A stretch of DNA of 64,000 nucleotides from Rhizophagus irregularis. Lineage: Eukaryota > Glomeromycota > Glomeromycetes > Glomerales > Glomeraceae. Both the position numbers and the translations under genes were made by a program. Under the pieces are notes generated by a model. The model was given only the letters and a program-made list of their open reading frames with translations. It was not told where the DNA came from and did not search any database. The stretch is taken from the NCBI RefSeq assembly GCF_026210795.1, contig NC_089458.1, forward strand, positions 1,488,001-1,552,000, written 5' to 3'. Position 1 is the first letter of the stretch. Each line of letters starts with the position of its first letter. Below, one piece after another: positions 4,511 to 48,442 of the stretch.

Positions 4511-4624
4511 GTTAATTAGCTAAAAAAAAAAAATTATAACAATATAACATAAAATTTCTTTTTATAGTAGGATCTGTAAAGAATTTTATATATGATTTTT
4601 ACCTTATGCCTGAAGTCACTGGTC

Positions 4625-4735
4625 GAAATAAAAACTTTTGGTCATGTGACAAATTGGCTGATTTGTCACACATTTTGGCCAAATTTCGGAAATTATTAAA
4701 AATCGGCTAAATTTCAATATATATGATTTATGGTT
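4625..4735. mobile_element. Fragment of a mariner-like MITE (ACTGGTC terminus)
   Basis: It begins ACTGGTCGAAATAAAAACTT and continues GGTCATGTGACAAAT. A diverged inverted copy lies at about 29946-30061. The ACTGGTC terminus is shared with the palindrome at 25050-25469. The right end is not defined. Confidence 0.4.
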
Positions 4736-4824
4736 GATTTATTGAATTATTTAATCAAACGTTATACATTACGCATTACGCGTATTAAAAGTTTAAAAAA
4801 GGATCATCCTTTTTTAAACTTTTT

Positions 4825-4968
4825 TTAATTTTTTTTTCCCTTTCCTTTCCTTTCCTTCGTTCCCCTTCCCTGTTTCCCCTTTCTTCCCTTTTCCCTTCCT
4901 TCATTCTCCTTTCCCTTCCTTCCTTTTTTCTTCCTTCCCCTTCCCCCTTTCACTTTTTTTACTTTTTT
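4825..4968 (+). repeat. Long polypyrimidine tract upstream of the mini-exon array
   Basis: About 145 nt of almost pure C/T (blocks of CCCTTTCCTTT and CTTCCTTCC) run into the TATAG acceptor before the first array exon. It could act as an exaggerated 3' splice-site tract. The complementary strand reads as a Lys/Gly/Arg-rich open frame, which is a composition artefact. Confidence 0.7.
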
Positions 4969-4969
4969 T

Positions 4970-6990
4970 TTATAGGTTCGGCTTTCGGGTGGGCTTCTGA
5001 AGTACAGAAACTCCAAAGATTCGTAAGTATGAATACTTTGGAGTTTATTTTATTTTTTTTAATACGAACAGTTACTAACCGTTCTTTTTTCTTTTTTTTT
5101 TTTAGGTTCGGCCGTTCAGGTGGGCTTCTGAAGTACAGAAAGTCAGAAACTCCAAAGATTCGTAAGTATGAATACTTTGGAGTTTATTTTATTTTTTTTT
5201 AATACGAACGGTTACTAACCGTTCTTTTTTCTTTCTTTTTTTTAGGTTTGGCCGTTCGGGTGACTTCTGAAATACAGAAACTCCAAAGATTCGTAAGTAC
5301 GAATACTTTGGAGTTTATTTTATTTTTTTGTAATATGAACGGTTACTTAACTGTTCTTTTTTTTTCTTTTTTTTTTAGGTTTGGCCGTTCGGGTGACTTC
5401 TGAAGAATGGAAAAAACCAAGTTTCATAAGTTCGGAACTTGGTTTATTTTTTTTTAATATTATGAACGGTTATTAACCGTTCTTTTTCTTTTATTTTTTA
5501 TAGGTTCAGCGTCTCGGGTAGGATTTCCGAGTTCTGAGAAACGAAAAAAACCAAGATTTGTAAGTAATCTTAGTTTTAATTTTTTTTGTTTTTTTTAATT
5601 TTATTAATGAACGGTTACTAATAACTGTTCCTTTCTTTATTTTTTAGGTTCAGGTGGGCTTCTGAAAAATGAAAACCCAAAGATAAAGATTTGTAAGTTA
5701 CGAATCTTTTCTTTATAATTTTTTTTTTGTTTTTTTCTTTTTTTATTACGAACGGTTACTAATAACCGTTCTTTTCTTTATTTTTTAGGTTCAGGTGGAC
5801 TTCCGAAAAATGAAAACCTAAAGGTAAAGATTAGTACGAATCTTTACTTTATAATTTTTTTTTTGTTTTTTCTTTATTACGAACGGTTACTAAAACCGTT
5901 TTTTTCTTTATTTTTAGGTTCGGGTGGGCTTCTGAAGAACAAAAACCCAAAGATAAAGATTCATAAGTACGAATCTTTTCTTTATAATTTTTTTTGTTTT
6001 TTCTTTATTACAAACGGTTACTAATAACCGTTCTTTTCTTTATTTTTTAGGTTCGGGTGGGCTTCCGAAGAATGAAAATCCAAAGGTAAAGATTCGTAAG
6101 TACAAATCTTTACTTTATAATTTTTTTTTTTAATTTTATTAATGAACAGTTACTAATAACCGTTCTTTTCTTTTTTTATAGGTTCAGGTGGACTTCCGAA
6201 GAACGGAAAAAGGAGAACTTTTAAGATTCGTAAGTAATATACTTACGAATCTTTTTTTTAATGTTATGGAACGGTTACTAACCGTTCCTTTGATTTTTTT
6301 TTTATAGGTTCAGGTGGATTTCTGTCTTTCCAAGGAATGGAAAAAACTAAAGATTCAGTATAAATCTTTATTTTTTTATTTTTGTTTATTATTACGAGCG
6401 GTTTCTAACCGTTCTTTTTCTTTTTTTTAGGTCAGTGTCTTCTGAAGAATGGAAAAAACCAAGATTCGTAAGTACGAATCTTGGTTTTATTTTTATTTTT
6501 TTTTATAATATTAACGAACGGTTACTGACAACTGTTTTTATTTTATTTTTTTAGTTCAGTGGGCTTCCGAAGAACAACGGAAAACCAAGATTCGTAAGTA
6601 AGTACGAATCTTGGTTCTTTTTTTTATTTTATTTTTATTTTTTATTACTACGAACGGTTTACTAATAACCGTTCTTTTCTTTTGTAGGTTTCGAGATCTT
6701 TAGAAAAAGTGGAACCAAGATTCGTAAATACGAGTACGAATCTTGGTTTATTTTTTATTTTTTTAATATTATTATGAACGGTTATTAATAACCGCTCTTT
6801 TTTTTTCTTTTTATAGGTTTGGTGTCTCGAGTGGATTCCGATAAACAGAAAAAACCAAAGATTCGTAAGTAGAATCTTGGGTTTTTTTGCTTTTTTTTAA
6901 TATTATGGAACAGTTACTAACCGTTCTTTTCTTTTTTTTATAGTTTTGGTAGATTTCCAAAAGATCAAGATTCATAAGTATATACGAATA
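4970..6990 (+). repeat. Tandem array of about 16 mini-exon plus intron units (period about 130 bp)
   Basis: Each unit reads T-rich tract, (T)TAG acceptor, a 45-57-nt exon beginning GTTC(A/G)G, a GTAAGT donor, then a short intron with a palindromic branch region. Intact donors are seen at 5023, 5162, 5293, 5560, 5693, 6096, 6230, 6468, 6594 and 6865; other units have lost theirs (for example CATAAG near 5962). The palindrome GAACGGTTACTAACCGTTC (5206-5224 and many variants) has the consensus branch sequence TACTAAC at its centre. Donors lie in a second hairpin; 6457-6486 is a perfect inverted repeat around GTAAGT. Exons at 5648-5692, 6051-6095 and 6182-6229 are 45, 45 and 48 nt, and share an open frame reading SGGL(L/P)KN..PK(I/V)KI, with Arg or Cys made across the junction. 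Other units fall in other phases or have stops. No start codon or signal peptide is visible upstream. This may be a decayed repeat-protein gene or a satellite; the coding potential is only partly supported. Confidence 0.75.
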
Positions 6991-7376
6991 CATGAATAAT
7001 GTGATTGTGGAATTGTAAATTAGCAATACTTATTTGTAATATGCATTTATAAATAAAGTTGTGATTTTATTGCGAATATCAAATAAAATGAGTTGTGGCT
7101 GAATATTAGTAAATAAATTTAGTACAAATTTGCAATATAAATTAACATTCAGAAAACTATTCACCAAAATTTGCTATCTGAAATTGTTCCGAATGTTAAC
7201 TGAATTTTGGCCAAAATTTCAAGCCGAACTTTAGGCAAGTGGCAGCGAATTGCGGCCAAAAAATCTGCTAAAGTTCGACCAGCATTAGACCATAAATCAG
7301 CCTAAAATCGGCTGGCTGAATTTTGGCCGATTTGGACTATTTTGACTAGTAAGTAACCTATCTTATAGTAAGTAAC
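6991..7376. other. Non-coding stretch with GGCCAAAATT-type repeats
   Basis: Repeated GGCCGA/GGCCAAAATT motifs suggest the remnant of a foldback element, but no ends could be fixed. It forms the left flank of the stacked retroelement block. Confidence 0.3.
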
Positions 7377-7391
7377 ACTAGTCAAAAACTA
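7377..7391 (-). repeat. Target copy T0 (outer left), ACTAGTCAAAAACTA
   Basis: One mismatch from the 15-bp sequence ACTGGTCAAAAACTA found at 8648, 16863 and 25050. It abuts the 3' end of the non-autonomous element on its right. Confidence 0.75.
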
Positions 7392-8647
7392 GGCAAACAT
7401 AGCTTGAGCTTGAATTTTATTAATTATTGCCGAAGTGACTTTAGAGAACACAGAGTGATCTATAAAGTACCGCAACAAGTGCAGAACTAATAAAAAACAA
7501 AGAACAAATAATCTTCCAAAATTACAAATAAAAGAAAAGCTAAGATTATAAAACCCCACCCTCTATATATAAATAACTACGGCTACTCCCCCCAAATTTA
7601 TTTCAAAATAGGTAAAGTCGACTATGCTATACGTAACTTATCCAGCGCTGTACCCATTCCTAGAATCGGTAAAGAACCTCTGAGCTACCATTAGCACCAT
7701 CAGAAACGTATAAAATTTAATTTCCCCTATTTGACTACATACTATGGATAACAAACCTATTTCACAAAGACCTCTGAGAACTTTTTAGTGTCGTGCAGTC
7801 CAGCTGATGGGGAACTTTTTAGTGTCATGCAATTCCCAAAGGGACATTCATCTCATTGCGAACGATCCCAAACAGAGGACACCCATCTCATTGCGAACAA
7901 TCCTTCGACCTATGATCTACCTAGATAAGTCAATCCAATAATAGCCCAACATGTGACCACCTTGATCGGCATACTACAAAAACTGCAGTACCCAACCTGT
8001 CACCCCTTATCACTCAAGTGATCATCGATTTTGAAATTGTAACACCAAGCCACCATGACGATCAAATTTTCCAGTATCTTCCACCCCCAAAGAAAATAAG
8101 ATTACATCAAAAAAAATGACCAAGAAAAACAAAAAGCAAAAAATAAAAACATAAACTTCAGGAAAACTCGAAGTGCAATGAGAAAAACCTGAGTAAAAAA
8201 CACCAAACATACACCTCAACTCCATCTCTTTATTTTAGAAGACTAACTCCCCATTAACAACATTAACTAGCAAGAAATACGTTGATCAGGAACTCTTTCC
8301 AAGAAATACCAGTCCGGCCTGTGAACCACTTGGCCAGTTAGACTTTAAAGGTGTAGGAACTAAGACGCACTACTTTTCAACCTTTCAGAAAGCTTAGGGG
8401 AACGTTCGTATGGAACTGCCATCTTACAGTATTATTGGTAACTCCAAGACTCATGATAACGGTCTTAACTCAATATAAGCTGTAAGGAGTTTGAGCGAAA
8501 CTAAAGACCTCGGTAATAACTTCATATAACGTCAAAAAGTCCTTTTACTATCACTCAAGGCAAAAAATCCTCATATTTTTCATCCATGTCTTCTAGGGAA
8601 AAAATGGGCAGAGCCCGACGGGAGAGAAAGTACGATGATCCTACACT
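7392..8647 (-). mobile_element. Non-autonomous retroelement copy A (shares the LINE 3' tail)
   Basis: This 1.26-kb element lacks reverse transcriptase and endonuclease. Its 3' end on the minus strand, CTATGTTTGCC followed by TAGTTTTTGAC, matches the end of the adjacent LINE (CTATGCCACGTTTGCC plus the same 15-mer), as in SINE/LINE pairs that share a tail. Target copies T0 and T1 flank it. A full-length inverted copy lies at 25470-26728. A short open frame (8022-8225, minus) with a Phe-rich hydrophobic stretch is disrupted in the other copy, so coding is doubtful. The interior has a duplicated ACGACACTAAAAAGTT motif and a duplicated TTCGCAATGAG motif, suggesting a structured RNA. It could instead be a heavily deleted LINE. 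Confidence 0.65.
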
Positions 8648-8918: not shown

Positions 8919-11900
8919 CTATAAAAATCGACACTCCATCCTGCAAAAGCTGTTATTAAGTAGCACCGTTAGACGACCCATAAAACCCGAAAAGTGATTA
9001 AACCAAGGCAAACCATATTTCATCGAGTTCTTCAACCAATCGGTTTCGGAGTCACGTGAAACGTGTAGGGTCAGAGGTGGTAAAGATGAGTAAGGTATGT
9101 ACATCGACAATGGCAGATTAGATGGCTTCGGAGTAGTTTTCAACTTATAGGTAATGTTCATCGCGTTTTCCCATCTACTTTTCTCATAAGAACGCGGATT
9201 CCAGATTCGTCTTCTGAATTTCTGGACAAAATTGTTATGAATAGCAGCGATAACTTTAATCGCAGAAGTTCTTGGAATGGATAGATCAACAAATAAGTCG
9301 ATGAAGAGTTTGGGTAAGCAACCCACGGATAAGGGCAAAGGAGGACCAATTTGTAGAAAAAAAGGACCAGCATGAAAGAGAAGTAAGTTTAGCTATAAAT
9401 GGAGTAGGATCAATATCAGCCAAATTGCTCGCTTCCAGAAGTTTGGAAATCAAATAATTTTGATAAGATTGGAGAATTTGTTGCATAGGTAGACGTCGCT
9501 TTTTGCACATAAAAAGGTGCATCAGGTCTTCCAAGCGGTCGATACAAGAACGGCAAGTTAATTCGTCCATGTATAAGTCTGGTCGGGTCCGTTTAAGCTT
9601 TTCCAATGTAGGCAAATCATCCAAGAAAAGTTTGAATTTAAAGGTTAGGTGTCTTGAAACGTGCTTCATAGTAAAGCGACGCGTCATGTAGGGCTTGAAA
9701 TTTAGCGAACCAAGTTAGCTTCCCAGTCAACAATATAATCTATATTAGTTGATAATAAAGAAATAAAGTGAAATCGAGTTAAGTTTAACAAATCGCGCAT
9801 TAACTGCGTTTGATAGTATTGTTTTAGAAGGTGTCACGGATTAGATTCACGGACAACATCATTGTCATATATTAAGACAAAATCATGGGCAGAGGCCAGG
9901 TCCATTCCAGAGATCAAAATACTGGATGACGCGGTATGAGCAGTATTGGCTAAGGAATCAGCAAAATCGTTTAAATAATTGCCAGAATGAGCTTTAACTT
10001 TGACGGGAAGGACAGTCAAATTTTTAGAGAAGATGGTTCGCTCGATAATAGCCCAAAGTTCAAAATTTGTAGTTTTATAGTACAAACGACTATTTGAGTA
10101 GATAGAGGAAAAACAACTTTGAAGACTATCAATGGCAGTTTGTGAGTCAGTATAAATAGTAACTTCAGAGTCGCGAGGAGAGATAGTTAAAACAGCGTAA
10201 ATAGCAGCAGCTTCAGCTCGAGAAGAAGAAGGGTTATCACGAATAAGACCGTGAGCATAAGTGGCGATGGAGTTGGGAAAGCCTGCATCAGGGACTATTT
10301 GCATCCAAGACCAGCCCATAGAAACATCAGGAGTGCCTAAATTAATAAGAGACCCATCAGTGAAAAAGATGTAACGCGAGTCTGAAGAAATGACCAACGG
10401 GGAGTTAGCAAAAACAGCAGTAGCCGATGATTCAATAGTAACAGGAGTAACAGAAGCTACAGTGGTAGTTGCTGGAGAAGAAACAATGTCAAATTCCAAT
10501 CTACTATAATAAAGACGGACACCATCTTCTATATCAGCCCAAGTAAAAGGGGAAGTCACTTCAGAAGTAGTACGTTTAATCCGCTCGTTGGTAGTGGGCA
10601 GAATAAGCGAATGTTGTAGAGAGACCGTAGGTGTACAAAGGGTTAAATCAGCATTCCGTTTTTTGGAAGGAGGCAAAGGAATGTGAGCAACGCAACCAGG
10701 ACAAGGAGAGAGTCTGATGAGATCACCAGGTGAAGATTCACAATCAGGAGAAATCCAGTGAATGATAGAACAAGTACCACGACTAGCTTGGACTAGAAGT
10801 TGTTTGCCAAAAAAGGGAGAACCATAATCGTCCAACGTGACAATCCAATTTTTTGTAGTAGGAGGAGAAGATAAACAAGGAGTCAAATCATAAAAGGAAG
10901 AGTCAATCGTAGGCGTAAAATTAAACTGATCCAGCAAACGATTATTGGAGTCAGGAATAGTGGTAGCTTGTTGAATATCTTTGTACCAATAAGGGATACG
11001 GCCAGGGCCACGTCGTCCAACCAAATTGTCATAGTAAGCCTTCCAGGAAATTAAATGAGTTCCTTGGGGAGTAACAAGCTGAGATAAATAAAACAGTTGT
11101 CATTTACGCAGGATGGGAAGATAGGCTTTAAAGGCTTTAGGCGTCATGCAATCAAATAAAGGAACACGTCCATCTAACAAGGACAAATTCGGAAGCTTCG
11201 ATAATTGAGTGTGAAGCAAACAAAAAGGAGTAGAAGACAAGAGAGCAATAGTGCATGCAATATAATCTTTCTTGAAAGAAAATAGAGAAGACCATATAGG
11301 CCAATCTTTAATTAAAAGGGGAGAAATAGGAATCAAAAAATTATATTGAATTAACTTCAATCTATAAATAAAAAGAGATTGAATAAAAACAGAAGAAGAA
11401 TTAGCCATTAAAAATAAATTAGTAATATGACATTGTCATTGATGAGCAAACAAATTAATCAAGCCCAAGGCATGAGACAAAAATAAAATGGAATTGGGTA
11501 AAGAACGAGAAAAGTTTGCTTTATGCTTTACAACAGATCGTATACTTCTCGTTATTAGGTGACAGTCAGATTCAGATAAGTGAGTAACTTGCATCCGGTA
11601 TTCAAGTTTCGGTATAAGGACGGCATTATGTAAATACACAACTTGTTTGGAAGAGAGCTTTGCGGGGTGAATAGTCACTGCGAATAAGCAGCATTCACGT
11701 TTGAGTTGCTTTTTGACAAAATCCCGGGAGCTTTTAATGTTGAACCAGACACCTAAAAAACGAAAAGAAGTTGTCATGGAAATTGGGGTAATAATAATGG
11801 AAGGAACACTATTTAAAGAGGATAAATCCAAATTAAAAGTAATAGGGGATATAACGGAATTCGAAGTCAAGGGCAACGAATTAGTAATTAACACATATTT

Positions 11901-14550
11901 GTTATGATTGGCGGAAGTGTTATTGATCTGATAAAATTCTTCAGTAATGGATAACATAAATTCCATGCCAGCTTTTGATGAGGAAATAAGAGTAGAGTCA
12001 TCCATAAATACTAAATTATTAATCTTCAAATCAAGAGAAGGACTTGAAGAATCAATTAAAGACGGTGTAGAAAGAACATAAGGGTCCATCATCTCATTCT
12101 TCAGAATAGTAAGTAAGGGATCAATATAAATGACCCATAAGAGAGGAGAAATAACTTCGCCTTGGTCAATGCCAATGCGAACCCTATAGGCAGGCGTAGA
12201 TCCATGAGCAGTGAAAACGTGATTAGTGCGTTTCATAAAAAGTGAAAGGATGAACTTAACAGCGGAGGCTGGAAGACGTATACGTTCTAAAGTGAAACGT
12301 AACATCGTTAGATCAACTGAATCAAAAGCTTTAGAAATATCTTGGGAAAGAATCCAAAGCGGGTTTTTGTTGATATCAGCATCATGGATAATAGATTCTA
12401 AAGTAATAATAGGGTCGCGGCAAGAACCTCCAGGAAGACCAGCGAAGTTACCACCTTTAAGGACATCATGTGAAGCCATAATGGTAGAAAGGCGATTATA
12501 AAAAAGTTTGACAAGAGATTTCCTAATCACTTCAAGTAGGGTAATAGGGCGAGTATTTTTTAATTGACACTTCCATTCGTGAGGTTTGGGAATGGGAAAA
12601 ACCATTGCTTGTCGCCATAAGTCAGGAATATCAGCGTTGGAAAGGCATGCTTGAATCAAAATGAGGAGTAAAGCCGAGGTACGAGATCCGAGATGTTTGA
12701 GCATTTCATAGGTAATCATGGAAGGACCAGAGGCTTTACCGTTAGGAGTAGAAGAAACGGTGGATAACCATTCATCAAGGGTAGGGGGATTCATTAAAGA
12801 ATCATAGATGGAGGAAGACACATCATCCATAGGTTGATAGGCAGAAGACCATCTATCAGGTAGTGTATCAATAGATACAGGAGGAGTGGACTTTATAGGT
12901 ACAAAGTTTTGGAAATGGTTAACAACAGCATCATCTATGTCCTTAGGAGCAGTTAACAACTGAGGTTGAGAAGGATGGTCGATGAAGACACAGTCCAAAG
13001 TGATACGGCGACGAGTACGAGAAAGCGCTGAATCAATAAAGGAGGAAAGGTCAGTTTCAAAATTATTATTCCTATCGTCCAAGTGAGCACGGATGGAGGA
13101 GTCTTGGAATTCTTTTTCTTGAAGTAAATGAAATCCCCGTAAGGATTTTGAAATATTGGATAAATCATCAAGAAGTGACTTGAAATTATCTTGTCGACAT
13201 GATGAAAGAGAAAAGGGCAGAGTAGGAATGAAAGTAAAAACTTTCTTATATAATTGTAGAATGTTGTGAAGTCGATGCAAATGTATAGACCACTTATGTT
13301 CATGAGCAGCAAAATAAGTTAAAGGATATTTGCGCAATAGACGTATCGAATGCATTAGGCGATTTAAAAACCGATAATTTTGAGTTAAAATTTCCAGATC
13401 TTTAGGAACCTTAGGAGTATAATTATTGCCAACAGTAGAAGAAGGTAAAGTAGCGTTGGCGGATTTAAGGATTCGTGATTGAAGATATTCGCACATCTGA
13501 TTGATATGCCAGGAGGAAAAGGTTGATGGTGAAACATCACATAAGGCATCAGCTTTGTCAGCAAATTCCGTCCATTGAGTATCAGTTACAGAATCAAATT
13601 TGAAAACGCGACGGGTTTGGCGCTTAAGTTGACGAGCGCGAGCCAATTTGGTAGAGGCAAAAAGTAAAGACATATCATAATATGTGATGACAGGGTTGTG
13701 ATCAGATGTGCAGATGTCTTGAGCATTAAAAATACAAGCAGTAAGAGCAAATCCTTTGAGAAGAGGGCAGGACCATACATAATCAACACGAGTAATGTGG
13801 TCATTGCGATGAAAGGTACCTAAAGAGTCGGAAAGATTAATGGGTGTAAAATCTTCATAACCGTGAGAAAGGAGATGAAAAAGTAATCGGTGTATATGTT
13901 TTGAAGCAATTTGGGGTTGATTAAAATAAATAGGATAATATTTATCTAAATGCATATTAAAATCGCCACAAACAGCATGATAAAAACCAGCTTGTTTAGT
14001 AAGGATAAGTTGTTGAATAAGCAAATCAATAGTGTCAGTGCGCAGAACACTTTCAGCAGGGGGAGGGATATAAATAACAAATATACGCAATTTAACATTG
14101 CCTTTGAAATATAAATCAACAGAAAGCAGTCGTGAAGAATGGGATTTAAAATCTTGTACATGTGATGCAAGAGAATTTTCTATAAATAAGGAAACACCAC
14201 CAGAAGAAAGAATTTGTTTAGAAGTATCCAAATTCGAAGAAAACACAGTATAATTAGAAAGTCGTTTGGATAAAAACTTCATTTGTTTAGGGTGGATATG
14301 AGTATCAACAATACCGCCAAAGGAAATATGTTTTAGAGAAAAGAAGGTAGAAATCTCTTCTAATTTAGTCTGACCATGCATTTTAAGGCCATTGACATTA
14401 AAAGAGGAAATATTAAATGAATTGGGGATAGGAGAAGTATTACTAGGAGAAGAAAATAATGATTCATGTGAAAAAAGTTCAGTAACATTATCGGGGTTGG
14501 GAGGGTTTCGTACAAAGGTGTCATAATTAAAATTATTGTCGACATTAAAA
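8919..14550 (-). pseudogene. LINE copy 1 ORF2: endonuclease, reverse transcriptase, RNase H (broken)
   Basis: Domains in order: APE-type endonuclease (SSFNVNGLK, VIYIPPP, CGDFN, SDHNPVI), reverse transcriptase (DISKAFDSV, GIDQGEVISP and VFMDD as the catalytic box), RNase HI (TDGS, AEAAAIYAV, YTDSQTAI and NDFADS give the D-E-D-D set), and a C-terminal CRSC-x8-H-x3-C zinc-knuckle-like motif. The protein would nick its target and prime cDNA synthesis there. Lesions versus copy 2: one base missing just after the ATG (near 14550), a TGA replacing CGA near 11442, a TGA replacing TGG near 11100, a TGA replacing CGA near 9834, and a one-base insertion near 9330. It is therefore non-functional as read. 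Confidence 0.9.
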
Positions 14551-14595
14551 CGCAATGATAAAAACAGTCGGGGAGATAAGATTTGAAGAAGAAAT

Positions 14596-16719
14596 TTAAA
14601 CAGAAGAAGCTGAATCAGCTTGTTCCAGGGGAGCACCACCAATGGAGCTAATGAATTGTTTGATATGACCAGTAAGTTGGTCCAATTTACTTTCAATAAC
14701 GACTCTACTATTTTTGAGATCGTTAATTTCTTCTTGCGTGGAGGAAATAGTGGTAAAAGAAGGAGCGTTGGGGGAGAGGTGAGAAGGAGGAAGCGACATG
14801 TTGGGAACAAGAATAGTAGGAGGTGGAGGTCGCGATAAAATACTTCTGGGGGGTAAGAGAGATGTAGTGGAAGGCTGAATGTTAAGTGGAACATGGAATA
14901 CAGGGGCATCCTTTTGCATGAGATCCAAGTCAGATTCATTAGGACTAGGAAGCGGGTCAAGACCAAGGTGTGATTCGATACGAGTCATCCGTTGGTCAGC
15001 AAGTTCAAGAGCGGAAATGCGTTTGTGAAAATTAGCAACTTCACATTGCAATTCGCGCAAGAGGTTTAAAATATTGTTAGCATCATCAGGAGATAATGCT
15101 GAGTTGGGGGTTTGTCGGGGCAAAGGACGTGTTGTAGAACGAGAGGAGGAAGAAAACGAGACCGATCTTTCTTTACTATTATGGCGGGCACGTTGAGAAG
15201 GATTGGGATTTGGTTTGTTATGATTTTTATTATTATTAGTGCGGTCATGGGAAATGTTTTTATCACGTCCGGAATTATGAGTAGATCGATCTTTGGATTT
15301 TGAGCGAGATCGGGAGCGAGAACGTGTGTTAGCAGCATTAGAATTGGAGCGGCGAGGTTGATTGACATTAAATCGTTCTTTGAGTTTTGCTACAGGGTCG
15401 CGAGTGCGACTTCTACCTCTGGATTGTTTTAGTGGGCAAAAATTTGGAGCACAACCTAATTTGCCACATCTGCGACAAAGCTTGTTGGTATTATCTGGGG
15501 AGGACCAGAAAAGTACCTTTCCTTGGAAGCTGACAGTTTGTTCCATAGCAGCATCCATGGTTTCTTGGGAATTGAAGGTGACATAAGCCCATCTTTTGGG
15601 CTTGTAAGAGTTTAGAGAAAGCAGTACATTGACAGCTTTAGCGCCAAGGCTACGAGTAAGGGGAGCCAAATTGATATCCTTAACATTGGGGGGAAGTTGG
15701 GTGAGGGTGGCAACGTATTGACGGCGCGCAGCCTTTTGATCCACAGTATAACAACATGGAGTAATTCTGAGGCAGGTGGAGAAACAGTACACAGCCCATT
15801 GGTCGGTAAAACGAGCAATAGAATCGGCGTGATCATAAACAATGCGGGCTTGCTGAACTTTGGCATTAGGCCTGGAGAAAAGGCGGCAAGAGGTGATATT
15901 ACCAAATTTCTTAAAATAAGCCATGAGGTTGTCTTTTTTAATGAAGAAAGGGATATCGGTAACTTGGATAGCCCAGAGATCTTCATTGGATCGGAGTTGG
16001 CGAGGGTCATGTGCATGAAAGATTAAGTCAGGGAACTCAGGATGGGTGGAACCAACGCACAAATCGCGTGCTTCAGCAGTATGGAAGTGGATAACGAGGC
16101 GTTTGGCTTCACCAGAGCCAGTCATACGTGCTTTTCCAGTAAACGACTCGTAAGTTTCTAAAAAAAGGTTATTAACAGCCTCAATAAGGGCTTTGTTGGT
16201 AGGGAATTTCTTAAGAGATTCAGGGGCAGCATTCGGCGCAGCCGCAGCCTGAAAATCTTCTCTGGTTATGGCGAGGGTCACCACTGGATCTGGAGTATGA
16301 TCGTCATCTGGAGTACCATTGGTATCCAAATTGGGCGACGCGTTAGGGGGTTGTTGCAAGTCTTTGTTTAAAGGTGCATGCATGGACGCGTCCACATTTC
16401 CAGAAGACGTGACGTGACTGGGCGCAGTTGGCGCAGCAGATTTTTTCGGGGAGGAGGTCAAAGTATTTTCGCCAGAGATATTTTGTTGAGGAGAAGAGGA
16501 AAGTCCATCTACTCCAACGTCAGCCGTCTGGTCATCGGCAACGTAGTCTTCTTCCATAGAATTTTCGGTAATTGTACGATTATGTTTCTACTGGACAGTA
16601 TTTTCAATATCGGAGCTTGAGTTATCAGAGTTATTATTATTTTTTCGTTCTTGACGGGAAGCTTTCCTACTGTTAGGGTTATGACTTCCACGGCCTCTCT
16701 TGGCATAGTTACCAGACAT
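14596..16719 (-). pseudogene. LINE copy 1 ORF1: RRM-like, zinc-knuckle nucleic-acid-binding protein (one stop)
   Basis: The ATG at 16719 (MSGNYAKRGRG) opens a Ser/Asn-rich N-terminus. A TAG at 16588-16590 replaces the CAG found in copy 2; the frame is then open for about 650 codons to 14596. It carries two RRM-like folds (IQVTDIPFF...NLMAYFKKFGNIT and a second ending KRWAYVTFNS), a CRRC-x4-C-x4-C knuckle (CRRCGKLGCAPNFCP), an RS-rich basic tract, and a predicted coiled coil (ANNILNLLRELQCEVANFHK). The ORF1 product of such LINEs coats the RNA. Translation could in principle restart at a Met just after the stop (MEEDYV). Confidence 0.85.
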
Positions 16720-16862
16720 AGTAGAGGGCTTTGAGTTGGGAATATATAAAATATAAAATTTTATTAGTAGCTTGTATTATTTTTTTAAAAATAATAAAAA
16801 AATTATTTTCGTCAGAAATTTTCGTTTTTGAAAAATTCAGGAGAGAGTTACTACTACTGGTC

Positions 16863-16877
16863 ACTGGTCAAAAACTA
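16863..16877 (-). repeat. Target copy T2, ACTGGTCAAAAACTA
   Basis: A single copy sits between the 5' end of LINE copy 1 and the 3' end of LINE copy 2, serving as flank to both. Confidence 0.8.
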
Positions 16878-17136
16878 GGCAAACGTGGCATAGTAGCCTT
16901 TATCTTTATTGAATTAATTCGAACTTTACAATTTACAAAAAAATAAAAAGAAAAATATAAAATAAAACAAACTAAAAACAAAGCTATATAGTCTCCTAAG
17001 AAAAAATAAAGTAAAAAATTAATCTAAAAAAAAGAAAAATCGCATTACACTAAATTTCCCCAGATCTTCCCCTTTGATATATTCCAACCAAAGTAGAAGC
17101 AACTATATGCTAACAAAATAACGAATAGCGCGCCCA

Positions 17137-20100
17137 CTATAAAAATCGACACTCCATCCTGCAAAAGCTGTTATTAAGTAGCACCGTTAGACGACCCATA
17201 AAACCCGAAAAGTGATTAAACCAAGGCAAACCATATTTCATCGAGTTCTTCAACCAATCGGTTCCGGAGTCACGTGAATCGTGTAGAGTCGGAGGTGGTA
17301 AGGATGAGTAAGGTATGTACGTTGACAATGGCAAATTAGATGGCTTCGGAGTAGTTTTCAACTTATAAGTAATGTTCATCGCGTTTTCCCATCTACTTTT
17401 CTCATAAGAACGCGGATTCCAAATTCGTTTTCTGAACTTTTGAACAAAATTGTTATGAATAGCAGCGATAACTTTAATCGCAGAAGATCTTGGAATGGAT
17501 AAATCAACAAATAAGTCGATGAAGAGTTTGGGTAAGCAACCACGGATAAGGGCGAAGGAGGACCAGTTTGTAGAAGAAAAGGACCAGCATGAAAGAGAAG
17601 TAAGTTTAGCTATAAATGGGGTAGGATCAATATCAGCCAAATTGCTCGCTTCCAGAATTTTGGAAATCAAATGATTTTGATAAGATTGGAGAATTTGTTG
17701 CATAGGCAGACGGCGTCTTTTGCACATAAAAAGGTGCATCAGGTCTTCCATGCGGTCGATACAAGAACGGCAAGTTAATTCGTCCATGTATAAGTCTGGT
17801 CGGGTCCGTTTAAGCTTTTCCAATGTAGGCAAATCATCCAGGAAAAGTTTGAATTTAAAGGTTAGGTGTCTTGAAGCATGCTCAGAGGTAAAAGATGCAT
17901 CATGAGAAGGCTTGAAATTCAAAGTGAACCAAGTAAGTTCCCAGTCGACAATATAATCTATATTAGATGATAATAAAAAGGTAAAATGAAAACGCGTTAA
18001 ATTTAACAAATCACGCATTAACTGCGTTTGATAATATTGTTTGAGAAGGTGTCGTGGATTAGATTCACAGACAACATCATTGTCATAAGTTAAGACAAAG
18101 TCATGAGCAGAGACCAGGTCCATTCCAGAAATCAAGATACTGGATGACGCAGTATGAAGCGATGTTAGCAATCAGCAAAATCGTTTAAATAGTTGCCAGA
18201 GTGAGCTTTGACTTTGACAGGAAAAACTGTCAAATTCTTGGAAAGGATGGTTCGTTCAATGATAGCCCAAAGTTCAAAATTTGTTGTTTTGTAGTAAAGG
18301 CGGCTATTCGAGTACACATAGGAAGAACAACTTCGAAGACCGTCAATGGCAGTTTGCGAGTCAGTATAAATAGTAACTTCTGAGTCGCGAGGAGAGATGG
18401 TTAAAACTGCGTAAATAGCGGCAGCTTCAGCTCGAGAAGAAGAGGGATTATCTCGAATAAGGCCATGAGCATAAGTGGCAATGGAGTTAGGAAAACCTGC
18501 ATCAGGAACAATTTGCATCCAGGACCAGCCCATAGAAACATCAGGAGCGCCTAAATTAATAAGAGATCCATCAGTGAAAAAGATGTAACGCGAATCCGTA
18601 GACTTGACCAACGGGGAATTTACAAAAACAGCAGCAGCTGAGGATTCAATAGTGACAGGAGTAGCAGGAGCGATGAGGGTATCTGTAGAAGGGGAATCAA
18701 AATCAAAATCCAATCTACTATAATAAAGACGGACACCATCTTCTATATCAGCCCAAGTAAAAGGGAAGTCACTTCAGAAGTAGTACGTCTAATTCGCTCA
18801 TTGGTAGTGGGCAGAATAAGCGAATGTTGGAGAGAGATCGTGGGCGTACAAATGGTTAAATCAGCATTCCGTTTTTAGAAGGAGGCAAAGGAGTATGAGC
18901 AGCGCAACCAGGGCAAGGAGAAAGTCTAATGAGATCACCAGGCGAAGATTCACATTCAGGAGAAATCCAGTGAACAATAGAACAAGTACCACGACTTGCT
19001 TGGACCAAAAGTTGTTTGCCGAACATGGGAGAACCGTAATCGTCCAATGTGACAATCCAATTTTTTGTAGTGGGAGGAGAGGATAGACAAGAGGCCAGTT
19101 CATAAAATGGAGAGTCATTCGTATGTGTAATAACAAAACGATCCAGCAGACGATTGTTGGAGTCAGGTACAGTGGTAAATTGTTGAATATCTTTGTACCA
19201 AAAAGGGATACGGCCAGGGCCACGTCGTCCAACCAAATTGTCATAATAAGCCTTCCAGGAAATTAAATGAGATCCTTGAGGAGTGACAAGCTGAGATAGA
19301 TAAAACAGTTGCCATTTTCACAAAATGGGCAAATAGGCTTTAAAGGCCTTAGGTGTCATGCATTCAAATAAAGGAACACGACCATCTAACAAGGATAAGT
19401 TCGGAAGCTTCGAAAGTTGAGTATGAAGCAAACGAAAGGGAGTAGAAGTTAAGAGAGCAATAGTGCAAGCGATATAATCTTTCTTAAAAGAAAATAAAGA
19501 AGACCATATAGACCAATCCTTAATTAAAAGGGGAGAAATAGGAATCAAAAAATTATATTGAATCAAACACAATCTATAAATAAAAAGAGATTGAATAAAA
19601 GAAGAAGAAGAATTAGCCATTAAAAATAAATTGGTAATATGACATTGTCGTTGATGAGCAAACAAATTAATCAAGCCCAAGGCTTGAGATAAAAATAAAA
19701 TAGGATTGGGTAAAGAACGAGAAAAATTTGCTTTATGCTTCACAACAGAACGTATACTTCTCGTTATTAGGTGACAGTCAGATTCAGATAAGTGAGTAAC
19801 TTGCATCCGGTATTCAAGTTTCGGTATAAGGACAGCATTATGTAAATACACAACTTGTTTGGAAGAGAGCTTTGCGGGGCGAATAGTCGCTGCGAATAAG
19901 CAGCATTCACGTTTGAGTTGCTTTTTGATAAAATCCCGGGAGCTTTTAATGTTGAACCAGACGCCTAAAAAACGAAAAGAAGTTGTCATGGAAATTGGGG
20001 TAATAGTAATAGAGGGAACACTATTTAAAGAGGATAAATCCAAATTAAAAGTGATAGGAGGTAAAGTGGAATTCGAAGTCAAAGGCAACGAATTAGTAAT

Positions 20101-22755
20101 TAATACATATTTGTTATGATTGGCAGAAGTGTTATTAATCTGGTAAAATTCTTCTGTAATGGATAACATAAATTCCATGCCAGCTTTAGACGAGGAAATA
20201 AGAGTAAAGTCATCCATAAATACTAAATTATTAATCTTCAAGTCAGGAGAATTTGAAGAATCGATCAAAGATGATGTAGAAAGAACATAGGGGTCCATCA
20301 TTTCATTTTTCAAAACAGTAAGTAAAGGATCAATATAAATAACCCATAAAAGAGGAGAGATAACTTCGCCTTGGTCAATACCAATGCGAACCCTATAAGC
20401 AGGCGTAGATCCATGAGCGGTGAAAACGCGATTAGTGCGTTTCATAAAAAGCGATAAAATAAACTTAACAGCGGAAGCTGGAAGACGTATACGCTCTAAA
20501 GCAAAACGTAACATTGTCAGATCGACCGAGTCAAAAGCTTTAGAGATATCTTGGGAAAGAATCCAAAGCGGGTTTTTGTTGACATCAGCATCATGGATAA
20601 TAGATTCTAGAGTAATGATAGGGTCGCGGCAAGAACCACCAGGAAGACCAGCGAAGTTACCACCTTTTAGAACATCATGTGAAGCCATAATAATAGACAG
20701 GCGATTATAGAAAAGTTTGACAAGAGATTTCCTAATCACTTCAAGTAAGGTAATAGGGCGAGTATTTTTTAATTGACATTTCCATTCGTGAGGTTTAGGG
20801 ATAGGAAAAACCATTGCTTGTCACCATAAATCGGGAATATCAGCTTTGGAAAGACATGCTTGAATTAAAATGAGGAGTAAAGCCGAGGTACGAGATCCGA
20901 GATGTTTAAGCATTTCATAAGTAATCATGGAAGGACCAGAGGCTTTACCGTTAGGAGTGGAAGAAACGGTGGATAACCATTCATCAAGGGTAGGGGGATT
21001 CATTAAAGAATCATAGATGGAGGAGGACACATCATCCATAGGGTGATAGGCAGAAGACCATCTATCAGGTAGTGTATCAATAGATACAGGAGGAGTGGAC
21101 TTTATAGGTACAAAGTTTTGGAAATGGTTAACAACAGCATCATCAATGTCCTTAGGAGCAGTTAACAACTGAGGTTGAGTAGGATGGTCGATGAAGACAC
21201 GGTCCAAAGTGATACGGCGACGGGTGCGAGAAAGCGCTGAATCAATAAAGGAGGAAAGGTCAGTTTCAAAATTATTATTTCTATCGTCCAAGTGAGCACG
21301 GATGGAGGAGTCTTGGAATTCTTTTTCTTGAAGTAAATGAAATCCCCGTAAGGATTTTGAAATATTGGATAAATCATCAAGAAGTGACTTGAAATTATCT
21401 TGTCGACATGATGAAAGAGAAAAGGGCAAAGTAGGAATGAAAGTAAAAACTTTCTTATACAATTGAAGAATGTTTTGAAGTCGATGCAAGTGTATAGACC
21501 ACTTATGTTCATGAGCAGCAGAATAAGTTAAAGGATATTTGCGCAATAGACGTATCGAATGCATTAGGCGATTTAAAAACCGATAATTTTGAGTTAAAAT
21601 TTCCAGATCTCTAGGAACCTTAGGAGTATAATTATTGCCAACAGTAGAAGAAGGTAAAGTAGCGTTGGCGGATTTAAGGATTCGCGATTGAAGATATTCG
21701 CACATCTGATTGATATGCCAGGAGGAAAAGGTTGAGGGTGAAACATCACATAAGGCATCAGCTTTATCAGCAAATTCCGTCCATTGAGTATCAGTTACAG
21801 AATCAAATTTGAAAACGCGACGGGTTTGGCGCTTAAGTTGACGAGCGCGAGCCAATTTGGTAGAGGCAAAAAGTAAAGACATATCATAATATGTGATGAC
21901 AGGGTTGTGGTCAGATGTGCAGATGTCTTGAGCATTAAAAATACAAGCAGTAAGAGCAAATCCTTTAAGAAGAGGGCAGGACCATACATAATCAACACGA
22001 GTAATGTGGTCATTGCGATGAAAGGTACCTAAGGAGTTGGAAAGATTAATAGGAGTATAGTCTTCATATCCATGAGAAAGGAGATGAAAAAATAATCGGT
22101 GAATATGTTTTGAAGCAATTTGAGGTTGATTAAAGTAAATAGGATAATATTTATCTAAATGCATATTAAAATCGCCACAAACAGCATGGTAAAAACCAGC
22201 TTGTTTAGTAAGGGTAAGTTGTTGAATAAGCAAATCAATAGTGTCAGTGCGCAAAACACTTTCAGCAGGGGGAGGGATATAAATAACAAATATACGCAAT
22301 TTAACATTGCCTTTAAAATATAAATCAACAGAAAGCAAACGTGAAGAATGGGATTGAAAATCTTGTACATGTGAAGCAAGGGAATTTTCTATGAAAAAAG
22401 AAACACCACCAGAGGAAAGAATTTGTTTAGAAGTATCCAAATTAGAAGAGAACACAGTATAATTAGAAATGCGCTTGGATAAAAACTTCATTTGTTTAGG
22501 GTGAAGATGAGTATCAACGATACCACCAAAAGAAATATGTTTCAAGGAAAAGAAAGTAGAAATTTCATCTAATTTAGTCTGACCATGCATTTTAAGGCCG
22601 TTAACATTAAAGGAGGAAATATTGAATGAATTGGGGATAGGAGAAGTGTTACTAGAGGAAGAAAATAACGATTCATGCGAAAAAATTTCCGTAACATTAT
22701 CGGGGTTGGGAGGGTTTCGTACAAAGGTATCATAATTAAAATTATTGTCCGACAT
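17137..22755 (-). pseudogene. LINE copy 2 ORF2: endonuclease, reverse transcriptase, RNase H (broken)
   Basis: The ATG at 22755 (MSDNNFNYDTFV) is taken as the native ORF2 start, 50 nt after the ORF1 stop. The endonuclease and first part of the RT are open to a TGA near 20821, where copy 1 has CGA (IPDLW-R-QAMVF). The RT proper (GIDQGEVISP, VFMDD) is open from 20814 to a second TGA near 19318, again in place of an Arg codon. The RNase H region (18165-18713, TDGSLINLG) and the C-terminal domain (17137-18171) are split by frameshifts near 18775, 18880 and 18170. Apart from these lesions all catalytic boxes are preserved. Confidence 0.9.
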
Positions 22756-22805
22756 TAAAGCACAATGATAAAATCAGTCGGGGAGTTTGAATTAAAAGAA
22801 GAAAA

Positions 22806-24930
22806 TTAAACAGAAGAAGCTGAATCAGCTTGTTCCAGGGAAGCACCACCAATGGAGCTAATGAATTGTTTGATATGACCAGTGAGTTGGTCCAATTTAC
22901 TTTCAATAACGACTCTACTATTTTTGAGATCGTTTATTTCTTCTTGCGTGGAGGAGATAGGTGTAAAAGGAGGAGCATTTGGGGAAAGGTGAGAAGGAGG
23001 AAGCGACATGTTAGGAACAATAGTAATTGTAGGCGAAGGTCGCGTTAAAATGCTTTTGGGAGGTGAAGAAAATTTAGCGGAAGACTGAATATTAAGCGGA
23101 ACATGAGTAACAGGGGCATCTTCTTGCATGAGATCCGGTTCAGGCTCATTGGGCATAGGAAGTGGATCGAGGCCAAGGTGTGATTCAATACGAGTCATCC
23201 GTTGGTCAGCAAGTTCAAGAGCGGAGATGCGTTTGTGAAAGTTGGCTACTTCACATTGTAATTCACGCAAAAGGTTTAGAATGTTATTAGCATCATCAGG
23301 GGATAATGCAGAGTTAGGAGTTTGTCGGGGCAAAGGACGTGCGGTAGAACGAGAAGAGGAAGAAAAAGAGACCGATCGTTCTTTACTATTATGCTGGGCA
23401 CGTTGGAAGGTATTGGGATTGTGCTTGTTATGATTATTAACATTGTTATTGCGGTCATGAGAACTGTTATTATCACGTCCGGAATTATGAGTAGATCGAT
23501 CTTTGGATTTTGAGCGAGATCGGGAGCGAGAACGTGTATTAGCAGCATTAGAATTGGAGCGGCGAGGTTGATTGACATTAAATCGTTTTTTGAGTTTTGC
23601 TACAGGGGTCGCGAGTGCGACTTCTACCTCTGGATTGTTTTAGTGGGCAAAAATTTGGAGCGCAACCTAATTTGCCACATCTGTGACAAAGCTTGTTGGT
23701 ATTATCTGGGGAGGACCAGAAAAGTACCTTTCCTTGGAAGCTGACAGTTTGTTCCATAGCAGCATCCATGGTTTCTTGGGAATTGAAGGTGACATAAGCC
23801 CATCTTTTGGGCTTATAAGAGTTTAGAGAAAGCGGTACATTGACAGCTTTAGCGCCAAGACTACGAGTAAGGGGAGCCAAATTGATATCCTTAACATTGG
23901 GGGGAAGTTGGGTGAGGGTGGCAACGTATTGATGACGCGCAGCCTTTTGGTCCACAGTATAAGAACATGGAGTAATTCTGAGGCAGGTGGAGAAACAGTA
24001 CACAGCCCATTGGTCGGTAAAACGGGCAATAGAATCGGCGTGATCATAAACAATGCGGGCTTGCTGAACTTTGGCATTAGGCCTGGAGAAAAGGCGGCAA
24101 GAGGTGATATTACCAAATTTCTTAAAATAAGCCATGAGGTTGTCTTTTTTAATGAAGAAAGGGATATCGGTAACTTGGATAGCCTGGAGATCTTCATTGG
24201 ATCGGAGTTGGCGAGGGTCATGTGCATGAAAGATTAAGTCAGAGAACTCAGGATGGGTGGAACCAACGCACAAATCGCGTGCTTCAGCGGTATGGAAGTG
24301 GATAACGAGGCGTTTGGCTTCACCAGAGCCAGTCATACGTGCTTTTCCAGTAAATGACTCGTAAGTTTCTAAAAAAAGGTTATTAACAGCCTCAATAAGG
24401 GCTTTGTTAGTAGGGAATTTCTTAAGAGATTCAGGGGCAGCATTCGGCGCAGCCGCAGCCTGAAAATCATCTCTGGTTATGGCGAGGGTCACCACTGGAT
24501 CAGGAGTTTGATCGTCATCTGGAGCACCGTTGGTATCCAAATTGGGCGACGAGTTAGGGGGTTGTTGCAAGTCTTTGTTAGAAGGTGCATGCATGGACGC
24601 GTCCACATTTCCAGAAGACGCGACGTGACTGGGCGCAGTTGGCGCAGCAGATTTTTTCGGGGAGGAGGTCAAAGTATTTTCGCCAGAGGTATTTTGTTGA
24701 GGAGAAGAGGAAGGTCCATCTACTCCAACGTCAGCCGTCTGGTCATCGGCAACGTAGTCTTCTTCCATAGAATTTTCGGTAATCGTGCGATTACGTTTCT
24801 GCTGGACAGTGTTTTCACCATCGGAGCTTGAGTTATCAGAGTTATTATTATTTTTTCGTTCTTGACGGGAAGTTTTCCTACTGTTAGGGTTATGACTTCC
24901 ACGGCCTCTCTTGGCATAGTTACCAGACAT
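22806..24930 (-). pseudogene. LINE copy 2 ORF1: RRM-like, zinc-knuckle protein (frameshifted)
   Basis: Open from the ATG at 24930 (MSGNYAKRGRGSHN) through both RRM-like domains and the CHRCGKLGCAPNFCP knuckle. A one-base G insertion near 23607 (GGGG versus GGG in copy 1) then shifts the frame. The remainder resumes in the correct frame and ends ASSV-stop at 22806. Copy 2 keeps the Gln codon that is a stop in copy 1, so together the copies show an intact ancestral frame. Confidence 0.85.
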
Positions 24931-25049
24931 AGTAGAGGGCTTTGAGTTGGGAATATATAAAATATAAAATTTTATTAGTAGTTTGTATTATTTATTAAAA
25001 ATAATAAAAAATAATTTTCGTCAGAATTTTCGTTTTTGAAAAATTCAGG

Positions 25050-25064
25050 ACTGGTCAAAAACTA
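25050..25064 (-). repeat. Target copy T3 (left terminus of the palindrome)
   Basis: The left 15 bp of the palindrome; also the 5' flank of LINE copy 2. Confidence 0.8.
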
Positions 25065-25454
25065 ATATATCGGGTAGCAGATATGTATCAGATATGTACC
25101 TGATATATGTAGTATTAATGCTAAAAATCAGGTACCCGATATGTGTAAGATATGTGTAAATATATATATCATATACATATCGGGTACCGATATGTATATG
25201 ATATGTAAATGATATATAGACGATATATATATTTACACATATGCTACGTATATCAGTGCCCCAATTTTAAACATTATCTACTGTATGCTCCGATATATCA
25301 TATACATATCGCACCGATATGTATATGATATGTAAATGATATATAGACGATATATATATTTACACATATCTTACATATATCGGGTACCCAATTTTCAACA
25401 TTAATACTACACATATCAGGTACATATCTGATACATATCTGCTACCCGATATAT

Positions 25455-25469
25455 TAGTTTTTGACCAGT
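25455..25469 (+). repeat. Target copy T4 (right terminus of the palindrome, inverted)
   Basis: TAGTTTTTGACCAGT, the inverted counterpart of T3; 5' flank of non-autonomous copy B. Confidence 0.8.
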
Positions 25470-26728
25470 AATGATGATCGTACTTTCTCCCCCGTTGGGT
25501 TCTGCCCATTTTTTCCCATGAAGTTATGGATGAAAAATATGAGGATTTTTTGCCTTGAGTGATAGTAAAAGGACTTTTCGACGTTATATGAAGTTATTAC
25601 CGAGGTCTTTAGTTTCGCCCGAACTCCTTATGGCTTATATTGAGTTAGGACCGTTATCATGAGTCTTGGAATTACCAATAATACTGTAAGATGGCAGTTC
25701 CATATGAACGTTCCCTGGGCTTTCTGAAAGGTTGAAAAGTAGTGCGTCTTGGGTTCCTACGCCTTTAAAGTCTAACTGGCCAAGTGGTTCGCAGGCCGGA
25801 CCGGTATTTCTTGGAAGGAGCTCCTGACTAACGTATTTCTTGTTAGTTGATATTGTTAACTGGGGAGTTAGTCTTCTAAAATAAGGAGACGGAGTTGAGG
25901 TGTATGTTTGGTGAATTTTACTCAGATTTTTCTCATTGCACTTCGAGTTTTCCTGAGGTTTATGTCTTTATTTTTTTGCTTTTTGTTTTTCTTGGTCGCT
26001 TTTTTCGGTGTAACCTTATTTTCTTTGGAGGGTGGGGGGGATACTGGAAAATTTGATCGTCATGGTGGCTTAGTGTTACAATTTTCAAAATCGATCATCA
26101 TTAGGGTGACAAGGGTGACAGGTTGGGTACGTTTTGTTTTTGTAGTATGCCGATCATGGCTGGTCATCATGTTGGACTATCATTGGATTGACTTATCTAG
26201 GTAGATCTTAGGTCGATGGATCGTTCGCAATGAGGTGGGTGTCCTCCGTTTGGGATCATTCGCAATGAGGCGTGCTTCTCGGAATTCGCACGACACTAAA
26301 AAGTTTCCCATCGGCTGGACTGCACGACACTAAAAAGTTCCCGGAGGTCTTTGTGAAATAGGTTTGTTATCCATAGTATGTAGTCAAATAGGGGAAATTG
26401 AATTTTATGTATTTCTGATAGTGCTAATGGTAGCTCGGAGGTTCTTTACCGATTCTAGGAGTGGGTACGGCGCTGGATGGGTTACGTATAGCATAGTCGA
26501 CTTTACCCATTTTGAAATAGATTTGGGGGGAGTAGCTGTAGTTATTTATATAGAGAGGGTGGGGTTTTATAATCTTAGCTTTTCTTTTTATTTGTAATTT
26601 CGGAAGATTATTTGTTCTTTGTTTTCTATTAGTTCTGCACTTGTTGCGGTACTTTATAGATCACTCTGTGTTCTCTAAAGTCACTTCGGCATTAATTAAT
26701 AAAATTCAAGCTCAAGCTATGTTTGCCT
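25470..26728 (+). mobile_element. Non-autonomous retroelement copy B (inverted relative to copy A)
   Basis: It starts GATGATCGTACTTTCTC just inside T4 and ends GCTATGTTTGCC, followed by TAGTTTTTTTTTTT, a degraded form of the target. The sequence matches 7392-8647 on the opposite strand along its whole length. Small indels break the short frame seen in copy A, which argues against a protein product. Its orientation is the one expected if insertion direction follows target orientation. Confidence 0.65.
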
Positions 26729-48195: not shown

Positions 48196-48442
48196 TTGAA
48201 GTAAAAACCTTATATTAAATATATTATATTTTATTATTTCAGTTATTAATAACTTTTGAATTTATATACATATCTGCCGATTTGTGGAATTTGCCAATCA
48301 TCAGTTATGTGGCGCAGTACTGATTAAAATCAATCAAAACCTGTTCCTACATAAGAAAAAATGTCAAAAAATATATAAAAAAACTTTTAAGACACTCCCC
48401 AAAATATTCTTCTCAATGCTAGAAACAGTACACCCCTCTCTA

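Follow-up and report, generated by a model that had tools for sequence, protein, structure and literature searches.

The locus described here raises the question of what a tandem array might be in which each repeat unit resembles a complete intron joined to a very short exon. The array lies in a window of 64,000 nucleotides (contig C30:1488001-1552000) of the genome of Rhizophagus irregularis, which comprises 146.7 Mb in 32 contigs. An earlier note on this DNA had offered two readings, a repeat-protein gene growing in steps of one exon plus one intron and a splice-competent satellite, and had overlooked the DNA transposon whose body the array forms. From the sequence of the array and of its copies we consider it likely that the array is carried as cargo by non-autonomous CACTA-like DNA transposons, here termed family F1, and that this cargo consists of spliceosomal introns.

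Overlapping rows were reported by TRF at 4953-6259, with periods of 131, 133, 140 and 262, and dissection by hand extended the array beyond these rows up to 6973, resolving 4976-6973 (plus strand) into 16 units with 16 mini-exons (30-56 nt) and 15 introns (73-96 nt). Because the units were defined by their pyrimidine-rich TAG acceptors, the acceptor is present in 16/16 by construction. The mini-exons measure 47, 56, 47, 47, 56, 45, 45, 45, 45, 48, 50, 37, 39, 36, 48 and 30 nt. The tandem units of the earlier note, each combining a T-rich TAG acceptor with a mini-exon, were recovered, and its exon range of 45-57 nt holds for part of the array and is too narrow for the whole. The GTAAGT donor and the branch sequence that it had assigned to the units are likewise present in most of them: GTAAGT was found in 10/16 units, another donor beginning with GT in three (GTAAAT, GTACGA and GTATAA; 13/16 with GT in total) and ATAAGT in three (units 4, 8 and 16), while the motif TA[CT]T[AG]A[CT] was matched in 12/15 introns and near variants, added by eye, in the other three (TTACTTAAC, TACTAAA and TTTCTAAC). 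The signals of a U2 spliceosomal intron (donor, branch, pyrimidine tract and AG) are thus ordered at workable spacing, as in the intron at 5162-5245 (plus strand), in which a GTAAGT donor is followed by a branch motif in the hairpin GAACGGTTACTAACCGTTC, a T-tract and TAG. These signals are largely kept across homologous arrays rather than randomly substituted, and the splice-competent satellite of the earlier note fits the sequence.

The ATAAGT donors were compared with the best-matching units of other copies. The counterpart of unit 4 has GTAAGT in 4/4 close sisters (L014, L024, L026 and L029) and that of unit 16 in 6/7 copies. The best match of unit 8 also has GTAAGT in 4/4 sisters; this match is doubtful because the same sister unit is the best match of unit 9 as well, and it may not be the true counterpart. 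The simplest reading of the ATAAGT donors is that C|GTAAGT would have undergone CpG decay after insertion. Recognised units number 9-18 per F1 copy (nine copies), and because unit number differs between copies the array appears to grow and shrink by whole units. Ahead of the first unit, a pyrimidine-rich tract (4831-4975, plus strand, 94% C/T) ends in the first acceptor and might serve as a promoter or as a strong 3' splice site, and past the last unit an A/T-rich region (7052-7117, plus strand) contains three AATAAA hexamers (at 7052, 7082 and 7112), which are possible 3' end signals. An Rfam scan of 4600-7400 gave no family at the gathering score and six sub-threshold matches.

When 20 further array-bearing stretches (L009-L028, of which L017 adjoins L018) were fetched and compared, the array proved to be the interior of a DNA transposon of 2,735 bp at 4617-7351 (plus strand), as delimited by the limits of homology between copies and by inverted ends. 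Among the loci sharing the flanks of the window subfamily, homology extends beyond the array, its left limit corresponding to window positions 4614-4617 in 10 loci and its right limit to 7350-7354 in nine loci and to 7342 in L018. These limits coincide with the inverted repeats CACTGGTCGAAAT and ATTTTGACCAGTG, the latter reading GACTAGTA in the window. In the window, the left end at 4617-4640 (plus strand) begins with CACTGGTCGAAAT and the right end at 7328-7351 (minus strand) terminates in GACTATTTTGACTAGTA (GACCAGTG in other copies), and the element is flanked by the 3-bp target-site duplication AGT at 4614-4616 and 7352-7354. The terminal inverted repeats of F1 are of the CACTA type (CACTGGTC/GACCAGTG, and CACTAGTC in L015, L016 and L023), the fifth base being G in most copies shown (CACTG, not CACTA). 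Matching 3-bp duplications were seen by eye in 10 of the 11 F1 copies inspected at both ends (AGT in the window, ATA in L009, TGG in L010, CCC in L011, AGA in L012, ATA in L013, AAT in L014, AGT in L024, TTA in L025 and GAA in L026), L029 having no match. Target duplications of 3 bp are a property of CACTA elements (PMC4158355).

Paired inverted ends and 3-bp duplications are accordingly observed around tandem units with U2-type signals, and the copies are dispersed. Since the best 40 of 156 left-end candidates and the best 40 of 79 right-end candidates were scored, copy counts are lower bounds; pairing by eye gave at least 31 F1 elements, with 9/40 left ends lacking a partner. Of these 31 paired elements, 25 are 2.1-4.0 kb long and the other six are shorter or longer (0.6-17.9 kb), the long copies including one of 17.9 kb on C4 and one of 11 kb on C14 (L017 and L018). 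Matches to the F1 palindrome GAACGGTTACTAACCGTTC with at most two mismatches numbered 424 on the forward and 422 on the reverse strand, which are nearly the same places, GAACGGTTACTAACCGTTC being palindromic, and the reversed control gave 0; the repeat signal is beyond chance. A transposase was sought in three longer F1 copies (L029-L031), and no autonomous copy was found among them. The insert in L029 (L029:1489-5952) is itself a transposon, bounded by the inverted ends TTAAGGGACAG (TTAA-type) and nested within the F1 array; four of its frames gave no Pfam match above the cut-off, and the inserts in L030 and L031 resemble this stretch of L029 only in array-like sequence. Plavaka domains gave 123 matches genome-wide. 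The LINE-type frames at 9.8-24.9 kb of the window are located outside the F1 element; at 9834-24930 (minus strand) the frames form two LINE-like sets, which contain RNA-recognition and reverse transcriptase domains, an endonuclease-like domain below the cut-off and, in one set, RNase H. Around these frames, ACTRGTCAAAAACTA motifs resembling F1 ends were seen at 7376, 8647, 16862, 25049 and 25470, and the stretch 25049-25470 resembles a small inverted-repeat element.

The branch motif of F1 is located at the tip of the palindrome GAACGGTTACTAACCGTTC, of which pairing-preserving variants such as GAACGGTTACTAATAACCGTTC occur. Perfect branch stems of 7-9 bp were found in 7/15 window introns and stems of 5-6 bp in two more, the stems of the remaining six being shorter or interrupted; 8/15 introns are thus without a perfect stem of at least 7 bp. 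As a host control, seven introns of two mitochondrial-carrier genes (L034 and L035; two more genes, L036 and L037, were left out), with boundaries set by eye, had best stems of 3-6 bp, a range that touches that of the window introns. In a second hairpin of F1, the donor lies within a stem formed by the end of the exon and the start of the intron, the arms of which vary between units (for instance CCAAGATTC, CCAAGTTTC and AAAGATTC) while the partner arm varies along with them. For 222 units from 24 sequences, picked by a GTAAG or GTAAAT donor, the stems averaged 8.8 bp with their own arms versus 6.5 bp with arms swapped between units differing in their exon ends, a difference to which kinship between units may contribute. 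When 182 units were picked by acceptor and branch-region hairpin, with the donor not used, a downstream stem of at least 7 bp was present in 160 and missing in 22, and the core of the stem contained the donor or a one-step variant in 140 of the 160 (GTAAG 110, ATAAG 12, GTAA 7, GTAC 6, GTATG 5) and something else in 20. Control windows, drawn from the first 2.5 kb of the 24 sequences, reached this stem length in 529/2000 cases, with GTAA in the core in 79; this control is conservative because some of its windows, namely the window slice and part of a few loci, are array themselves. An early scan for branch hairpins at all candidate sites (stems of at least 6 at 199/424 array, 9/40 isolated and 2/23 shuffled sites) was judged too loose and was superseded by these stricter tests. 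RNA folding gave z values from -5.3 to +0.5 in nine folds (one F2 sequence being folded twice), and whole-intron folding was not unusual for the F2 intron and for one of two F3 introns, from the families described below. The branch hairpin and, in F1, the donor hairpin appear to be kept as structures.

F1 is not the only intron array of this kind. A second putative intron-array transposon, F2, of 1,471 bp, is located at 48426-49896 of the same window (minus strand), with pogo/Tc1-like ends CAGTCCCCTCTCGATATAA, which we take to be of the pogo/Tc1 type (CAGT...CTCGATATAAC-type ends with a TA target duplication). The copy in L013 has TA on both sides and the window copy has TA on the left and TT on the right. 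The F2 array was placed by TRF at 49016-49711 on the minus strand; its exons differ from those of F1 (recognised lengths 25, 28, 39, 40 and 41 nt), its donor is GTAAGTG, its introns are 80-83 nt long, and one unit has lost its acceptor. The 9-bp F2 branch hairpin, AAGAACATTTACTAATGTTCTT, is perfect in 2/5 recognised introns. Searches with the two F2 ends yielded 40 and 41 matches, the window included, of which 28 and 36, respectively, were at 92% or higher. Genome-wide, the branch palindromes of F2 and F3 were counted 126/109 and 97/115 times by strand, respectively, with 0 in the reversed controls. The F3 array at L026:7440-8930 has mostly 31-nt exons, GTGAGT donors and branch hairpins, and terminates near an ACCAGTG; within it, at L026:8343-8621, we observed a short inserted element that is bounded by CACTGGTAAAAAAATG inverted ends and has GGA to its left and right. 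A further array, F4, was noticed on the minus strand of L015 at about 9200-7870, with AAAGAAACGTTTTTAACGTTTCTTT and branch hairpins. Perfect branch stems of at least 6 bp occur in 2/5 recognised introns of F2, 1/5 of F3 and 1/4 of F4. The array of F2 can be aligned with that of F3 at 67% over 439 bp (E 1e-18, with the low-complexity filter off), and the families are therefore possibly related: they may share an old ancestral intron, in which case their recurrence would perhaps not be fully independent. Mobile DNA in this genome seems to carry ready-made intron arrays.

Three other explanations have to be weighed against a transposon cargo of introns. One is that the array is a repeat-protein gene, possibly for an effector, which lengthens stepwise by an exon together with an intron, and we regard this as very improbable in spite of several features in its favour. 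Window exons 6-10 (45, 45, 45, 45 and 48 nt) share one open phase, and the lengths and phase that the earlier note gave for the exons at 5648-5692 (mini-exon 6, 45 nt, frame SGGLLKNENPKIKI), 6051-6095 (mini-exon 9, 45 nt, SGGLPKNENPKVKI) and 6182-6229 (mini-exon 10, 48 nt, SGGLPKNGKRRTFKI), all on the plus strand, were reproduced, but the shared phase did not extend to the rest of the array. The peptide joined from exons 6-10 matches 19 annotated R. irregularis proteins (P0001-P0019), all hypothetical or unnamed, which look like gene models derived from F1 mini-exons; in P0001, 100/119 residues correspond to consecutively ordered L023 units with an identity of at least 90%, one segment reading past a GTAAAT donor. 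Judging from these published models, in which the mini-exons are joined, gene finders chose similar splice sites, and this speaks for an intron cargo. Furthermore, 116 exons of nine copies contain 103 stop triplets, whereas dinucleotide shuffles gave 146 and mononucleotide shuffles 300; 49 of the exons, versus 25 expected, are free of stops in any sense frame. This depletion was given little weight as evidence of coding, since antisense stops are rarer still in the same exons (60) and since the counts are not independent, the units being near-copies. Exon lengths modulo 3 (0/1/2) were 104/55/63 in the 222 units of 24 sequences, so that multiples of three (104/222) do not predominate as they do in micro-exon genes. 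When the exons of nine copies were joined, their real order was not significantly more open than permuted orders: in the best case 320/1000 permutations were at least as open, and in 4/9 copies this was true of over 90% of them. Reading frames are mixed in 11/19 models by a simple motif count, none of six models searched reached the Pfam cut-off, and none of the 19 has a signal-peptide-like start by hydropathy only (highest 12-aa mean 1.30). In addition, the array sits within a transposon. The mini-exons thus do not appear to encode a phase-conserved protein, as one of the two original readings would have it. The resemblance to SP7-type effectors tentatively suggested in the earlier note is disfavoured on the same grounds of mixed phase and lacking signal-peptide-like starts in the 19 models, and also on gene structure: SP7 genes are described as encoding a signal peptide and as having a conserved intron that precedes the first repeat (PMC11333574), whereas F1 would have an intron between every two units.

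A more serious competitor, which we nevertheless consider unlikely, is that of a passive minisatellite, in which a transposon captured a single exon-intron fragment that slippage amplified with the help of its palindromes, so that the splice signals would persist by descent and splicing would have no role. The varying unit number (9-18 recognised in nine copies), the CpG-type decay at donors and the possible common ancestry of F2 and F3 are in line with it, as is the result for spliced retrocopies, none of which was recognised with the one exon-exon junction pattern used (two stray hits with two mismatches). The same donor decay, retrocopy result and possible kinship of F2 and F3, together with the restriction of perfect branch stems to part of the introns and the mixed folding results, count against the transposon-cargo reading. 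However, a passive origin does not readily account for the recurrence of a similar geometry and branch hairpin between the ends of another superfamily and around different exons, as in F2, nor for donor-hairpin arms that co-vary or for donors that are the kept core of otherwise variable stems. It could also be proposed that the palindromes are bound by an accessory protein of the transposase and that their likeness to splice sites is incidental. In plant CACTA elements, repeated subterminal regions bind a transposase accessory protein, and regularly spaced palindromic motifs in a CACTA-like element would agree with such a function, but the F1 array is internal, every unit contains a T-tract and TAG that are not palindromic, the stems vary yet stay complementary, unlike a fixed binding site, and all splice signals are ordered at intron-like spacing. 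This last explanation seems to us the least probable of all.

If the array is the intron cargo of a transposon, as we favour, a transposase made elsewhere would mobilise the element in trans, and a transcript would arise either from the element itself or from a host gene hit by the insertion. The spliceosome would then remove the units one by one and leave short mini-exons, the removed introns of about 85 nt amounting to about two thirds of the array (1,277/1,998 nt). The hairpins might present or pace the splice sites and help units to gain or lose copies, and the benefit to the transposon could be that a largely removable insert, or an RNA that is cut up, is less harmful to the host. More tentatively, and with less confidence than we place in the intron cargo itself, we suggest that intron arrays may be a distinct transposon cargo in this fungus, carried by at least two superfamilies, that the host spliceosome may dissolve the RNA of these elements, and that the arrays could be reservoirs seeding new introns and mini-exons in genes. 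F1 would then be a transposon built of introns, presumably spliced ones, and F2 a second example with different ends within the window; this joins two open questions, the origin of introns and the coexistence of transposons with splicing. If the units are spliced, they would provide hundreds of similar natural introns with the branch motif at a hairpin tip, in which the control of branch-site choice by RNA structure could be tested. It also follows that, among the hypothetical proteins in the annotation of this symbiont, some are probably pieces of transposons, and caution is advisable where they enter lists of effectors.

Maize Ds and dSpm insertions are DNA transposons that are spliced out as introns, at a single or a few sites, whereas F1 carries an array of complete introns. 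A literature search of titles and abstract openings, with bioRxiv and most subscription work outside its range, found no description of intron-array transposons or of these repeats. A curated study of R. irregularis transposable elements names CACTA/Plavaka, and a term search of its main text returned neither "intron" nor "splic" (PMC11075540). With the non-autonomous elements of the CACTA group (En/Spm, CMC), including Plavaka, F1 shares CACTR-type ends and a 3-bp target-site duplication (PMC4158355 for the duplication), but its interior is an intron array, most copies shown begin with CACTG, and the copies read contain no transposase. Schistosome micro-exon genes resemble F1 in their many very short consecutive exons, but these exons are mostly multiples of three and belong to genes for secreted proteins with long introns (PMC10526429), whereas those of F1 have mixed lengths modulo 3, short introns and a transposon as carrier. 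Polyubiquitin (UBC) and other tandem-repeat genes with dual-specific splice sites also have these sites at unit boundaries and a variable unit number (PMC10809524); there, one AGGT serves as both sites and the units are coding, in contrast to the separate donor, branch and acceptor of F1. There is also a likeness to introners, fungal introner-like elements and symmetrical stwintrons, which are also mobile or proliferating sequences with spliceosomal introns. In fungal introner-like introns and stwintrons, an inverted-repeat symmetry whose role is open has been described (PMC8469720), whereas the inverted repeats of F1 are local, at the branch motif and the donor. Introners are transposons acting as single introns, many families of which have terminal inverted repeats and/or target-site duplications (PMC9860276; a term search of its main text returned neither "Rhizophagus" nor "Glomero-"). 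F1 has its own splice sites together with such ends and duplications, as introners do, but many introns per element: an introner places one intron per copy in a gene, whereas F1 consists of about 16 units with mini-exons between the introns.
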